From positions 1-49,516 of the IMG/VR virus record IMGVR_UViG_3300045919_000291: a stretch of 49,516 bases of DNA; one strand, 5' to 3'. Source of the stretch: a virus. The stretch's first letter is position 1. The number at the start of each line of letters is the position of its first letter. Position numbers and translations under genes: made by a program. This document shows, piece by piece, positions 2,359 through 38,832 of this stretch. A model generated the notes under the pieces. The model saw only the letters and a program-made list of their open reading frames with translations, ran no database searches and was not told the origin of the DNA.

Positions 2359-2909
2359 TGGAACGCATGATGGCGGCCTTGGGCGCCCGCGCTGCGGCGC
2401 TGGACGGCATGACCGCGCAACCGCGTTGGGGCGTGGTGACCAGCGTGAACCCGGCCGCGATGCGGGTGCGGGTGATGATCCAGCCCGAGGACGTGGAAAG
2501 CGGGTGGCTGCCGGTCATGGCGATGGCTTCCGGCAGCGTGACCGTATGGGCGCCGCCGACGCAGGGCCAGCAGGTGTTCATGGTGCCGGACTGCGGCAGT
2601 GCAGACGATTACGTGGTGTTGGGGTTGGGCTTCAGCGGTACGGCGCAACCGCCGCAGGTGCCGAACGCGGTTGGTGGCGGCAACAGCGTGGTGCAGCCGG
2701 GCGAGTTCTGCGCTGTGGCGGGCAGCACGGTGTTGCGGGTTTCGACCGGCGGCGTGTTCGTCAAGGGCAACCTGGTGGTGGATGGCGACGTGAGCGACGC
2801 GCACGGCAGCCTAGATCGCCTTAGGGGCAACTACGATTCCCACAAGCATCCGGGCGTGACGGCCGGCAGCAGCCTGACCGCGACAACCGATCATGTGGAC
2901 GCCGAATGA
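2358..2909 (+). CDS. Baseplate spike protein (gpV / Mu gp45-like)
   Basis: This 183-residue protein is likely the membrane-piercing spike at the tail tip. An OB-fold-like N-terminus (WGVVTSVNPAAMRVRVMI) is followed by a Gly/Val-rich strand region (about residues 115-150) suited to a trimeric beta-helix. Near the C-terminus lies YDSHKHPGV; an HxH motif of this kind coordinates an iron ion at the apex of P2 gpV and phi92 spikes. The gene is coupled to the hub gene by TGATG and overlaps a tiny membrane-protein gene at its end. Confidence 0.88.
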   Translation: MERMMAALGARAAALDGMTAQPRWGVVTSVNPAAMRVRVMIQPEDVESGWLPVMAMASGSVTVWAPPTQGQQVFMVPDCGSADDYVVLGLGFSGTAQPPQVPNAVGGGNSVVQPGEFCAVAGSTVLRVSTGGVFVKGNLVVDGDVSDAHGSLDRLRGNYDSHKHPGVTAGSSLTATTDHVDAE

Positions 2910-3007
2910 TGGGCGCTCCAGCCCGCATCGCATTCGCCCTAGCCGCTGCGTGCTGGGCCATCGCCTTCGCGGTCATCGCATGGAAAGGATGGCCTCTGCA
3001 TGGCTGA
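2906..3007 (+). CDS. Tiny single-span membrane protein
   Basis: This 33-residue ORF (MMGAPARIAF... ending WKGWPLHG) is essentially one hydrophobic helix (residues 7-26). It overlaps the spike gene stop by ATGA and the start of the gp25-like gene by 8 bases, so it bridges the two tail genes without a gap. ATG at 2909 is an equally possible start. The function is unknown. Its position in the baseplate operon could suit an inner-membrane helper of DNA entry, but that is speculation. Confidence 0.5.
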   Translation: MMGAPARIAFALAAACWAIAFAVIAWKGWPLHG

Positions 3008-3365
3008 CCTCGCGCACAGCTACGGCGGCGATTTGACGCTTTCGGCCACGGGCGACCTGGCACTTTCAACCGGCGCCGATGAAACGCGGGACCGTGTGCT
3101 GCGCCGGCTACTGACGTCGCCGGGCGCGTATCTCTGGCATCTGGACTATGGCGCAGGCTTCGCCGGCATGATCGGGCGGCCGATCAATCCCGCGGTGATC
3201 CAGGCCGTGGCGCAGCAGCAGATGTTGCTTGAGGCCGCGGTTGCCACCAGCCCGCCGCCGACCGTCGCGGTTTCGCAGGGCCAAGCCGGCGCGGTGTTCG
3301 CGGCGATTTCCTACACCGATGCACCGAGCGGCACGCCGCAGGTGCTTTCGCTGCCGAAGGGCTGA
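3000..3365 (+). CDS. Baseplate wedge protein, gp25-like (P2 gpW / Mu gp46)
   Basis: This 121-residue protein carries the gp25/gpW signature: DLTLSATGDLALSTGADETRDRVLRRLLTSPG, followed by WHLDYGAG and a small GRPI loop. It forms the inner wedge that contacts the sheath and starts sheath polymerisation. It begins inside the preceding 33-residue ORF and is followed by the gpJ-like gene after 3 bases. Confidence 0.85.
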   Translation: MADLAHSYGGDLTLSATGDLALSTGADETRDRVLRRLLTSPGAYLWHLDYGAGFAGMIGRPINPAVIQAVAQQQMLLEAAVATSPPPTVAVSQGQAGAVFAAISYTDAPSGTPQVLSLPKG

Positions 3366-34757: not shown

Positions 34758-35186
34758 ATGCCTCGCGGCGGTAGAACCTCGGGCACCCGGCCGAAAGGCA
34801 ACGGCGCCGGGTTGCACGGCCCGAAGAAAGGCGCCGGCTGGGGTGGTTCCGCGAAGGGGGCGAGCATGTCGCGCATTACCCCCGACGAAAAGGGCGAAGC
34901 AATCCGTGCGCTCTCCAAAGACCCGGCGCACATGGCCAAGAAACTGGACCTTGCGGCGGAAATGCTGGCCATCCGCGTGCAGATAGCCCGCGACCCTGAG
35001 ACGCAGGCCCTTGGGCTGGCCGCGGCCGAGAGCGTGGAAAAGCGGCTGCTTGGCGCGCCGATGCAGCCGAGCGAGGTAAGCGGCCCCGGCGGCAAGGCCA
35101 TCGAAATGGACACCCCGCTTGACCGCATCGCTAGCCGCCTCGCTGGCCTCGCTGCCCGAGGCAACCCGCCTGAGCGTACTGAGTGA
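34758..35186 (+). CDS. terS: Small terminase subunit-like protein
   Basis: This 142-residue protein begins with a Gly/Lys/Arg-rich flexible region and continues as helices (DEKGEAIRALSKDPAHMAKKLDLAAEMLAIRVQI). It lies directly before, and overlaps by 68 bases, the large terminase gene. The position and helical, basic build suit the DNA-recognition subunit of the packaging motor, though no HTH is obvious. Confidence 0.6.
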   Translation: MPRGGRTSGTRPKGNGAGLHGPKKGAGWGGSAKGASMSRITPDEKGEAIRALSKDPAHMAKKLDLAAEMLAIRVQIARDPETQALGLAAAESVEKRLLGAPMQPSEVSGPGGKAIEMDTPLDRIASRLAGLAARGNPPERTE

Positions 35187-37422
35187 CCTATCCCCGGCCG
35201 AGCTACGGTCGCTGGAATACGACTGGCGATTTTGGGCGCGGCAGAACCAGCTAGCCCCGCCGGGAGATTGGACGTTCTGGCTGCTGCTGGCTGGCCGAGG
35301 TTTCGGCAAGACGCGAACCGGCGCCGAGTGGGTGCGGCAAGCGAAAAACACATGCAGCCGCATTGCGCTGGTGGCTCCTACCGCCGCCGATGTGCGCGAC
35401 GTGATGGTTGAGGGCGAGAGCGGCATCCTCGCCATCTCGCCGCCTGATGACCGGCCACTGTATGAGCCAAGCAAGCGGCGCCTGACATGGCCCAACGGCG
35501 CCATCGCTACCACCTACTCGGCCGATGAGCCGGAGCGACTTCGCGGGCCTCAAAGTGATGCCGCCTGGTGCCTGTCTGGCGATACGTTGGTCACGATGGG
35601 CGACGGTTCCCTGAAGCGACTTTCTGCTGTTGCCGCAGACGATGAGGTGCTGACGCGATCCGGTCCCCGCCGCGTGCTCGCCTCTGCGATGACGAGACAA
35701 AAAGCTGAAGTGTTTCTTTTGCGTTCTGTGGGTGGACAAGCTATAATCGGCACTGCCGATCATCCTGTGTGGATTGAGGGCGTGGGGTTTCTTCCCCTTG
35801 GGCAACTCTCTCCAGGGATGGTTTTATGTGCGGTCAATGCGTGCAGTGGGGCGGCAAACTCTGGCACCGCTACGGCAACGGGCACTACGAAGCGACTGCC
35901 CGGCTTCATCGGGAAATATGGGAAGCGGAGCACGGCCCAATCCCGGCCGGGTCTCATGTTCACCACATCAACGGCGACAAGGCCGACAACAGGCTGGAGA
36001 ACCTCGAACTTCTCACGCACGCAGCCCATGCTGCGCACCACGCGGCCGAAAACCTTCCGCCCCATAAAGAGCTTGCTGCTGCAAACGCTCTCGCGGCTAT
36101 TCGACGCAACCATGCCTTACGGATGGGGCGCGCGCTTCGGTGTATTCAGTGTGGCGGGGAGTACCGAAGCGGGTCTAAGCACCCCACGCGGTTCTGTTCT
36201 TCTGCTTGCATCGAGGCCGCCCGCTCTGGCGCGTTTGGGCAATCTGCTCGCCAGTGCGCGAGGTGTGGCGAAAGCTACACGGCAACGCGCCGCGTTCAGC
36301 TTTATTGCACGAAGCGGTGCAACACGTTGGCTGCATCTGATAGGGCTGAAAGTCGGTCAGAGCGGATCATCGCTTGCGCGTGTTGTGGCGCATCCTTTGC
36401 CAGCGCCCGATCTAATGCTAAGTTCTGCAAAAGGGCGTGCGCCCTCGCTTTCCACGCTGATAATCGCTTCCGTGGAAAGATTGGAAGATCGCCGAGATGT
36501 CTATGACATTGCGGTAGAGGGCGCGCGGGAATTCTTCGCTAACGGCATTCTTGTCCACAACTGCGACGAACTCGCGGCGTGGCGCTATCCCGAAGCGTTC
36601 GATATGCTCATGTTCGGGCTTCGTCTCGGTAAGCAACCGCGTTGCGTCATCACCACCACGCCGAAGCCGGTCAAGCTGGTGCGCGACTTGTTGAACGATC
36701 CGCGCTGCAAGATCACACGCGGCAGCACCTATGACAACCGCGCCAACCTGGCCGAAAGCTTCATGGCGCAGGTGGTGCGCAAATACGAGGGGACGCGCCT
36801 CGGCCGGCAGGAACTGAATGCCGAGTTGCTTGAGGACGTGCCCGGCGCGATGTGGAACCGGGCAATGCTGGACGCGAACCGCGTGCGGCAGGCGCCCGAC
36901 ACACTGCGCCGCGTGGTGGTGGCGATCGACCCAGCCGTCACCAGCGGCGAGAGCGCGGACGAGACCGGCATCGTCGTGGCTGGCGTTGGCGCCGATGGCA
37001 TCGGTTACGTGCTGGACGACCTGACCTGCAAAGACACCCCAGACGCATGGGCGCGCAAAGCCGTGAACGCCTACAAGGCGCACAAGGCTGATCGCATCGT
37101 GGCCGAGGTGAACAACGGCGGCGACTTGGTTGAGGCAACCATTCGCATGGTTGACCGCGCCGCATCATTCACCGCCGTTCGTGCCACGCGAGGCAAGGCG
37201 GTTCGGGCTGAGCCGGTGGGCGCGCTGTACGAGCAAGGCCGCGTTAAGCATGTGGGTGCATTCGCGGCGCTTGAAGATCAGATGTGTGGGTTTACCGCCG
37301 ACCTTGACCGCAAGGCGCACGGCAGCAGCCCAGACCGCGTTGATGCGCTGGTGTGGGCGCTTACCGAGTTGATGGTGGAGCCGCAGATAGCCCCCGCCAC
37401 GGCCCAACCACTTCGGCTCTAG
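35119..37422 (+). CDS. terL: Large terminase subunit precursor containing an intein
   Basis: This 767-residue precursor is interrupted by a 331-residue intein, so the mature ATPase/nuclease would have 436 residues. The extein holds Walker A AGRGFGKT (58-65), a Walker B region joined after splicing as AAW-CDELAAW, and the RNase H-like nuclease with Asp604 (VAIDPAV) and SPDRVDALVWAL near the end. The intein lies exactly at the Walker B acidic pair, so splicing is needed for a working motor. The start is TTG 35119, overlapping the small terminase gene; no better start is seen. Confidence 0.92.
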   Translation: MTASLAASLASLPEATRLSVLSDLSPAELRSLEYDWRFWARQNQLAPPGDWTFWLLLAGRGFGKTRTGAEWVRQAKNTCSRIALVAPTAADVRDVMVEGESGILAISPPDDRPLYEPSKRRLTWPNGAIATTYSADEPERLRGPQSDAAWCLSGDTLVTMGDGSLKRLSAVAADDEVLTRSGPRRVLASAMTRQKAEVFLLRSVGGQAIIGTADHPVWIEGVGFLPLGQLSPGMVLCAVNACSGAANSGTATATGTTKRLPGFIGKYGKRSTAQSRPGLMFTTSTATRPTTGWRTSNFSRTQPMLRTTRPKTFRPIKSLLLQTLSRLFDATMPYGWGARFGVFSVAGSTEAGLSTPRGSVLLLASRPPALARLGNLLASARGVAKATRQRAAFSFIARSGATRWLHLIGLKVGQSGSSLARVVAHPLPAPDLMLSSAKGRAPSLSTLIIASVERLEDRRDVYDIAVEGAREFFANGILVHNCDELAAWRYPEAFDMLMFGLRLGKQPRCVITTTPKPVKLVRDLLNDPRCKITRGSTYDNRANLAESFMAQVVRKYEGTRLGRQELNAELLEDVPGAMWNRAMLDANRVRQAPDTLRRVVVAIDPAVTSGESADETGIVVAGVGADGIGYVLDDLTCKDTPDAWARKAVNAYKAHKADRIVAEVNNGGDLVEATIRMVDRAASFTAVRATRGKAVRAEPVGALYEQGRVKHVGAFAALEDQMCGFTADLDRKAHGSSPDRVDALVWALTELMVEPQIAPATAQPLRL
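35569..36561 (+). mobile_element. Intein in the large terminase (residues 151-481)
   Basis: Splicing motifs are canonical: Cys151 in CLSGDTLV (block A), GTADHPVW with Thr212/His215 (block B), DVYDIAVEGAREFFANGILVHN (blocks F/G, 460-481), His480-Asn481 at the end and Cys482 as the +1 residue. The usual block F His is Arg here. The N-domain ends near residue 236. The 220 residues between the half-domains have no family signature and are out-of-frame translation of an HNH endonuclease gene. Codons are more A/T-rich than in flanking terminase sequence, suggesting recent entry. Confidence 0.92.
35826..36506 (+). CDS. HNH homing endonuclease nested out of frame in the intein
   Basis: This 226-residue ORF lies in another frame than the terminase. 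ATG 35826 follows AGGGATGGTTTT (SD-like) at the end of the intein N-domain; its TGA (36504-36506) falls at the start of block F. Residues 27-72 (LHREIWEAEHG..., HVHHINGDKADNRLENLELLTH) are an HNH_3 nuclease with His46/His47, Asn49 and His65-72. Three Cys4 modules follow (106-128, 144-165, 184-205; CxxC-13/14-CxxxC), probably for DNA recognition. It likely mobilises the intein. Its own frame is closed by TGA at 35775-35777. Confidence 0.88.
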   Translation: MCGQCVQWGGKLWHRYGNGHYEATARLHREIWEAEHGPIPAGSHVHHINGDKADNRLENLELLTHAAHAAHHAAENLPPHKELAAANALAAIRRNHALRMGRALRCIQCGGEYRSGSKHPTRFCSSACIEAARSGAFGQSARQCARCGESYTATRRVQLYCTKRCNTLAASDRAESRSERIIACACCGASFASARSNAKFCKRACALAFHADNRFRGKIGRSPRCL

Positions 37423-37431
37423 GGGGCGCGC

Positions 37432-38832
37432 ATGGATGTTCGGACGCCTTCCGCGGCGGTTGCTGCCATGGCGCAGGACTGGGCGCTGGTGGATGCCCTG
37501 ATGGGCGGCACACGCGCCATGCGGGCCGCCAAGCAGGCGTATCTTCCGCAGTGGCCGGCAGAGGATGGCGAGAGCTACAAGGCGCGGCTGGCGACGTCGA
37601 CGTTGTTCCCGGCCTATCAGCGCACGGTTTCGGTCCTGACCGGCAAGCCGTTTTCCAAGCCGATCACGATTGGCGATGACGTGCCGCCGCGGGTTGCGGA
37701 AATGCTGCCCGATGTGGATTTGGAGGGCCGCAACCTCGATGTGTTCGCGGCCGAGGTGTGCGAGGATGCGCTAGCGCGCGGGTTCTGCGGCATCCTGGTT
37801 GACTGCCCGCCAAACCCCGGCGCGCGCACGGTGGCCGAGGAACAGCAGGCCGGCATTCGGCCGTATCTGGTGCATATCAAGGCCGGCGCCATCCTTGGGT
37901 GGAAGTCCGAGGTTGTCGGCGGCCAGCGCAAGCTGACGCAACTGCGGCTGCTGGAAACCGTCGAGGTTGAAGACGGTCCATTCGCCACCAAGGCGATTGA
38001 GCAGGTTCGGGTGCTGACGCCGGGCGCGTGGCAGACCTACCGCGCCAAGGCGACGGAGGCGGGCAAAATCGAATGGGTGCTGTTCGGCGAGGGCGTTTCG
38101 ACGCTGCCGGAAATCCCGTTCATCCCGGTGTATGGCCGGCGCGCGGGTTTCATGGTCGGCACGCCGCCCATGCTGGAACTGGCGCACGCCAACGTAGAGC
38201 ACTGGCAATCGAAGTCGGATCAGCAGACCATCTTGCATGTTGCGCGGGTGCCGCTGCTGTTCGCCAAGGGGCTGGCCGGGACGACGATCACGGTTGGCGC
38301 CGGTTCGTTCGTCAGTACCGATGGCGAGCATGCCGACCTGAAATATGTTGAGCATTCCGGCGCGGCCATCGAAGCCGGGCGCCTTTCGCTGCTGGACCTT
38401 GAGGACCGCATGCGCCAGGCCGGCGCCGAGTTGCTGGTCATCAAGCCGGGCAACATCACCGAAGTCCAGACCGTCGCCGACAACGAGCAGGGCATGTGCG
38501 ACCTGCAACGGATCGTGCAGGTGTTGGAAGACTGCATTGACCAAGCGCTGGCCCTGATGGCGCGCTGGGTTGGTTTGCCGACCGGCGGCACGGTGGAAAT
38601 CTACCGCGACTTCGGCGCCGCCACGCTGGCCGAGGCTTCGGCCGAGTTGCTGGCAGGCATGGAAGCGCGCGGCGGCCTGTCGCGTGAGACGCTGTACGCC
38701 GAGCTGAAGCGCCGAGGCATTCTTGGGCCGGGCGTTGATGTGCATGAGGAGCTGGAGCGCGCGAAGGTGCTGCCGGCTGACAAGAAACCCGATCCTGCGG
38801 CGCCTGAGCCTGACCCGGCCAGGGACGCCTAG
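37432..38832 (+). CDS. Portal protein (DUF4055 type)
   Basis: This 466-residue protein follows the terminase. The N-terminus (GGTRAMRAAKQAYLPQWPAEDGESYKARLATSTLFPAYQRTV) and the later IPFIPVYGRR plus ELAHANVEHWQSKSDQQTILHVARVP are typical of DUF4055 portals. It would form the dodecameric ring for DNA entry and tail joining. The C-terminus is Pro/Asp-rich. Confidence 0.88.
   Translation: MDVRTPSAAVAAMAQDWALVDALMGGTRAMRAAKQAYLPQWPAEDGESYKARLATSTLFPAYQRTVSVLTGKPFSKPITIGDDVPPRVAEMLPDVDLEGRNLDVFAAEVCEDALARGFCGILVDCPPNPGARTVAEEQQAGIRPYLVHIKAGAILGWKSEVVGGQRKLTQLRLLETVEVEDGPFATKAIEQVRVLTPGAWQTYRAKATEAGKIEWVLFGEGVSTLPEIPFIPVYGRRAGFMVGTPPMLELAHANVEHWQSKSDQQTILHVARVPLLFAKGLAGTTITVGAGSFVSTDGEHADLKYVEHSGAAIEAGRLSLLDLEDRMRQAGAELLVIKPGNITEVQTVADNEQGMCDLQRIVQVLEDCIDQALALMARWVGLPTGGTVEIYRDFGAATLAEASAELLAGMEARGGLSRETLYAELKRRGILGPGVDVHEELERAKVLPADKKPDPAAPEPDPARDA

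Follow-up and report, generated by a model that had tools for sequence, protein, structure and literature searches.

An intein in the terminase frame and a nested gene in another frame

The 49,516-nucleotide stretch of virus record IMGVR_UViG_3300045919_000291 analysed here (the window) encodes a large terminase subunit (TerL, gene terL), whose reading frame, termed the host frame, is free of stop codons from 35080 to 37419 and ends with a stop codon at 37420-37422. This open reading frame (ORF) contains an intein, inserted after RGPQSDAAW and before Cys36562-DELAAW of TerL, and within the intein lies an HNH endonuclease gene in another frame (Table 1). An earlier note, made from the sequence alone, had assigned all splicing motifs to the terminase frame, and the positions agree: Cys1 is encoded at 35569, block B reads TADH (TxxH type), the intein ends with ...VLVHN at 36561, and Cys+1 follows at 36562. 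The HNH gene was likewise recovered where it had been described, from ATG 35826 to a TGA at 36504-36506, with the frame relation host = HNH+1. It starts about 86 codons into the intein and stops at the beginning of the C-terminal splicing motif.

The splicing halves and the HNH protein were searched against databases, as the note had proposed. Pfam Intein_splicing was found in the host frame (E-value 1.8e-7) as a single match bridging both ends, under the curated cut-off of Pfam, and TIGR01443 (intein_Cterm) exceeded its cut-off in the same frame. HNH_3 (PF13392) was detected in the HNH frame, and the catalytic-motif residues H46, H47, N55 and N59 are invariant. Thus, the endonuclease shares neither polypeptide nor frame with the intein, unlike that of a canonical large intein; nor are the N- and C-terminal intein halves (IntN, IntC) on separate polypeptides, as in a split intein, since the host frame is open throughout.

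Table 1. Features of the terL intein and its nested HNH gene in the window (pLDDT, predicted local distance difference test score; SD, Shine-Dalgarno)
Feature	Position	Strand	Evidence
TerL N-extein, ATPase part	35119..35568	+	Pfam Terminase_6N; colinear with intein-free L083; start codon uncertain, open from 35080
Intein, 331 amino acids, Cys1...His-Asn, host frame stop-free	35569..36561	+	Motifs, profile matches, empty site in L083
N-terminal half of splicing (Hint) domain, residues 1-90	35569..35838	+	pLDDT 95-98; Foldseek to GyrA and RecA inteins
Upstream in-frame stop (TGA), HNH frame	35775..35777	+	Sequence
SD-like AGGGA, 7 nucleotides 5′ of HNH start	35814..35818	+	Sequence
Nested HNH endonuclease gene, 226 amino acids, host = HNH+1	35826..36506	+	ORF, HNH_3; pLDDT 89
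Host-frame filler, residues 93-287, predicted disordered	35845..36429	+	pLDDT <50 over most; 21% identity to L123 vs 57% in HNH frame
HNH_3 domain, residues 26-69, invariant H46, H47, N55, N59, H68	35901..36032	+	PF13392, E-value 1.2e-18; invariant alignment columns
Three Cys4 zinc-finger-like modules of HNH protein: C106-C128, C144-C165, C184-C205	36141..36440	+	Invariant cysteines in two HNH alignments
C-terminal half of splicing domain, residues 290-331, ending ...VYDIAVEGAREFFANGILVHN	36436..36561	+	TIGR01443 above cut-off; pLDDT 89-98
TerL C-extein, Cys+1 DELAAW..., nuclease part and stop	36562..37422	+	Terminase_6C; PHROG terminase

Census of related loci

A profile built from eight nested HNH proteins was run on the six-frame ORFs of 234 sequences. 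The two ends of the intein were sought with separate profiles, the N-terminal one built from block A-B matches, and an open frame between them was not required. Among 74 distinct HNH ORFs flanked by both intein ends, 68 are enclosed by an open host ORF that is read in a different frame (65 at host = HNH+1, three at host = HNH+2) and six sit between two separate host ORFs. The same HNH in frame in homologous inteins, which would have spoken against the earlier description, was found in none of the 74. Cys is the first residue in 66 of the 68 nested inteins; all 68 have a terminal Asn, and the residue after it is Cys or Ser. When 30 family members were checked with Pfam, every host frame matched Intein_splicing and every HNH frame matched HNH_3. 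The combination of a separate HNH frame and an uninterrupted precursor, as the note had it, is therefore matched by dozens of homologues, with a filler of about 200 residues.

For replication we used 16 loci from bacterial and archaeal contigs outside model building. Eight more were nested, all at +1, with zero stops in the +1 frame and 3-27 in the +2 frame; three were split. One had a distant HNH in frame, and the classifier is thus able to report in-frame layouts. One of the 16, a TerL intein on a Planctomycetota contig (L244, 2533-4599), with its HNH at +2, was first scored as partial and then classed by eye. With more than 70 related inteins in very different phages sharing it, the layout is a genuine and widespread way to build a selfish element and no sequencing error.

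Absence of stop codons in the host frame

Synonymous-codon shuffling of the HNH genes gave the number of host-frame stops to be expected. In the nested +1 genes long enough to test (n = 61), there are no host-frame stops where about 101 are expected, and only 12.4 of these genes should be open by chance. The same holds at low G+C content: the nested genes below 45% (n = 20) have no stops vs. 50 expected. By comparison, 39 host-frame stops were counted in the six split HNH genes, against 33 expected. In the 21 free-standing relatives the count is 129 where 136 are expected, and not one of these relatives is open. These counts near expectation indicate that the null model is calibrated and that purging of stops is confined to the nested genes. 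As the nested class is defined by its open frame, we also pooled it with the split class, which lifts that condition; 61 of the 67 genes flanked by N- and C-terminal intein ends are then open, 12 being expected. A chance open frame is ruled out for the family by these stop counts. The +2 frame contains nine stops in the window (about 12 expected) and 648 across 46 genes; the preference for +1 can therefore be ascribed to composition, the other frame of these genes being rich in stops.

Selection and predicted structures

When pairs were aligned, differences within the HNH ORF were most frequent at the third codon position of the HNH frame (position 2 of the host frame), whereas in the flanking splicing domain they peak at the third position of the host frame; the phase switches at the borders of the HNH gene. 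Judging from this substitution pattern, the HNH frame is under protein-level selection. The low identity of the filler between the window and L123, set against that of the HNH protein, indicates that the filler is no conserved protein and need only stay open.

AlphaFold2 predictions for the host-frame product (27-row alignment, no templates) agree with this division. Residues 1-90 and 290-331 reach a pLDDT of about 89-98, and most of residues 93-287 stay below 50 and are predicted to be disordered. The modelled ends match the GyrA, RecA and DnaB inteins in Foldseek and appear to adopt a Hint fold. The HNH-frame product is predicted to fold as an HNH domain with zinc fingers (mean pLDDT 89), whose catalytic and zinc-binding residues are invariant in the family alignments. 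A profile search with the HNH protein found I-HmuI (PDB 1u3e) with an E-value of 0.007, the likeness in fold being weak; Foldseek with the HNH model returned nothing below an E-value of 0.001, mostly zinc-finger noise.

Translation signals and an empty insertion site

Across the family, HNH genes start a median of 20 codons past the N-terminal intein motif. An SD match of at least 5 nucleotides precedes 42% of these starts, vs. 6% of control ATGs taken from the matching frame of those host genes (p = 9e-11); the start in L007 is preceded by AAGGAGG. The SD-like AGGGA that had been noticed in the window is present, with 7-nucleotide spacing and a duplex energy of −7.7, i.e., of moderate strength.

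The terminase of L083, 89% identical to that of the window, has no intein at the exact site (RGPQSDAAW/CDELAAWRYPE, the stroke marking the insertion point). The window's intein thus interrupts, in frame, a host protein that is intact and colinear in its absence, and the distribution of the intein is patchy, the L083 site being empty despite this identity.

Proposed mechanism and alternatives

We consider it very probable that the locus is a mobile terL intein with its homing endonuclease specified by a gene of its own that overlaps the intein. Translation of terL would yield a single precursor, in which the two ends of the insert would fold as a Hint domain; the 331-residue intein would be excised together with a linker of about 200 residues, and the exteins would be joined to a terminase of 436 amino acids. 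Other ribosomes may initiate internally at ATG 35826 and produce a free HNH-zinc-finger endonuclease from the other frame. This enzyme would cut intein-free terL at the ATPase-motif site, and repair would copy the intein in. Being excised, the linker would tolerate nearly any sequence, with the absence of stops as its sole constraint, and TerL would pay little for a read-through peptide that is removed together with the intein. As for its origin, a complete HNH gene, start and stop included, may have entered the loop of a mini-intein, the usual location of the endonuclease, in a frame poor in stops, and leftover stops would then have been purged.

Several points weigh against this reading. In the window alone, the probability of an open host frame is 0.084 by synonymous-codon shuffling, only mildly unusual, since long ORFs abound by chance in GC-rich DNA, and the case for the window leans on its relatives. 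These loci are themselves related, so that the pooled nominal probabilities are too small and independence is overstated. The HNH profile was derived from nested cases, and the 68:6:0 ratio of nested, split and in-frame layouts cannot be extended without bias to HNH inteins at large. The SD sequence of the window has a weak core match of 3 nucleotides. Finally, phage packaging modules often contain HNH proteins, and free-standing relatives of the family adjoin terL; the nested HNH could thus be a packaging-associated protein rather than a homing enzyme.

The last point leads to an alternative in which the intein splices, but the nested HNH is no longer homing and persists as a decaying passenger or as a cofactor of TerL in packaging. 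We regard this as unlikely, as the invariant catalytic and zinc-binding residues, the protein-level selection on the HNH frame and the patchy distribution of the intein all speak against it. Fusion of the HNH to the N-terminal part of the intein by programmed −1 frameshifting, without an internal start, is very improbable. A shift would be possible in the 48 nucleotides before ATG 35826, over which the HNH frame is open; however, in-frame slippery heptamers occur in only 3 of 65 loci, SD sequences are strongly enriched at the HNH starts, and the free-standing and split relatives are translated from starts of their own.

Removal of the insert as RNA, by a group I or II intron carrying an ORF and with a host frame open by accident, would fit the occurrence of such HNHs in group I introns and the resemblance of the HNH domain to I-HmuI. 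Yet an Rfam search for conserved group I or II intron structure gave no match, Hint motifs and fold lie in the host frame, and the strict absence of host-frame stops would be needless for an intron; we give this explanation very little credence. That two compensating indels in a single metagenome-derived contig mimic the picture, with the HNH really in the frame of an ordinary large intein, can practically be dismissed, as dozens of independent contigs and the isolate genomes of TJE1, Highwayman and Piscinibacter sakaiensis share the frame relation and the HNH ORFs come with a start, SD sequence and stop of their own. Frameshift errors, which the earlier note had named as an outcome that would overturn it, are ruled out by the conservation of both open frames in the diverged relatives L123, L126, L098 and L127.

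Comparison with known elements

Dassa et al. are said to have described, in 2009, fractured genes in which split inteins are accompanied by free-standing endonucleases. The resemblance is that there, too, mostly in phages, the endonuclease is a gene of its own between intein halves, and the split members of the present family are built alike; in the window, however, a single continuous polypeptide contains the whole intein, and the endonuclease gene overlaps its coding sequence out of frame. Textbook inteins have their endonuclease in frame. With such canonical large inteins, whether of the LAGLIDADG type or that in the dCTP deaminase of cyanophage CL131 with its in-frame HNH_3 (PMC6293099), the window shares the Hint domain, insertion at a conserved motif and an endonuclease between blocks B and F, but its endonuclease lies outside the intein polypeptide. 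The HNH domain is related to that of I-HmuI by profile and weakly by fold, whereas I-HmuI is encoded by a group I intron and has other DNA-binding modules.

In the ShiLan element, a methylase gene carries an HNH in another frame, with neither a splicing domain nor a detectable ribosome binding site; its insert is thought to remain in the host protein, and overlapping frames are said to be frequent in actinobacteriophages (Arsenault, Gosselin, Gogarten 2025, PMC11855218). The window and ShiLan have in common an out-of-frame HNH in an open host frame and a patchy distribution. Unlike in ShiLan, the HNH of the window is enclosed by a full Hint intein, SD sites are common in the family, and the hosts are mostly terminases. 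A literature search turned up no account of an endonuclease read out of frame within a splicing intein; a preprint by Gosselin et al. (2025, 10.1101/2025.01.02.630785), which the ShiLan paper cites for non-canonical intein architecture and which may overlap with our results, was outside that search.

We lean towards viewing these loci as a large class of inteins, not catalogued before and found mainly in the terminases of phages, where a homing endonuclease is overprinted on the linker, at almost no cost since the linker is excised, and whose overprinted, split and free-standing layouts would capture the assembly and disassembly of intein and endonuclease. Splicing and homing would here be separated within the same DNA, so that expression levels can differ and the two may evolve nearly independently. 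The loci would further show how endonuclease genes can enter inteins unfused, providing a concrete link to split inteins, and would offer a natural test bed for overlapping genes, with one frame selected as protein and the other merely avoiding stops. Annotation pipelines that allow one gene per locus miss such nucleases.

Hosts, layouts and further relatives

In the packaging module of the window, a terS-like ORF (34758-35186) is followed by TerL (35119-37422), the portal gene (37432-38832) and a scaffold-like gene; the terS-like ORF had no match in PHROG and is named by its position alone.

The hosts are mostly terminases, from several Pfam families, and two are family-A DNA polymerases. In TerL, the insertion sites are the ATPase motif (the window, L123, L126, L127, L098 and L158) and the nuclease motif around DH^C..DA. 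Two terminases contain two inteins, each with an out-of-frame HNH (L158:1060-1875 and 2557-3348; L134:109-939 and 1801-2709). The nested HNHs in the DNA polymerase inteins (L028:2400-3212 and L063:2397-3212) are at host = HNH+2 and likely of separate origin.

Public phage records with the nested layout are Tetrasphaera phage TJE1, Acinetobacter phage Highwayman and Rhodobacteraceae phage MD07; in all three, the terminase is annotated and the nested HNH is not. The layout was also seen in a prophage-like TerL of Piscinibacter sakaiensis 201-F6 (L245, NZ_BBYR01000045, 2160-4760).

In an HNH tree, eight nested genes, that of the window among them, form a supported set. With the label of the free-standing genes checked by eye, the layouts, three in number, require 11 changes on this unrooted tree, far below shuffled labels. 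Split-intein terminases whose halves are separated by a free HNH gene are those of CL2, L152, L194, L214 and L216. A free-standing HNH lies just 3′ of a complete TerL with uninterrupted nuclease-site codons in PAE1, FBPa53, SN1, vB_EauM-23 and Poludnitsa. The earlier suggestion that the locus may be transitional between contiguous inteins and split ones fits this range in part, insofar as the same HNH family also occurs split, as in CL2, and 3′ of intact terminases.

In Lactobacillus phage CL2 (L231, KR905067), the split-intein TerL with its free HNH gene spans 455-2771; TerL is annotated only to the end of IntN, and the tail comprising IntC and the remainder of TerL (about 2487-2771) is unannotated. 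The free-standing HNHs of L224, L225, L229, L230 and L233 lie directly 3′ of an intact terL with an empty intein site, an arrangement that suggests homing beside the target gene. In L018 (2069-4327) and L035 (2177-4084), host sequence near the start of the insert resembles sequence past the insert (ALKPA.EP..), as has been reported for ShiLan.
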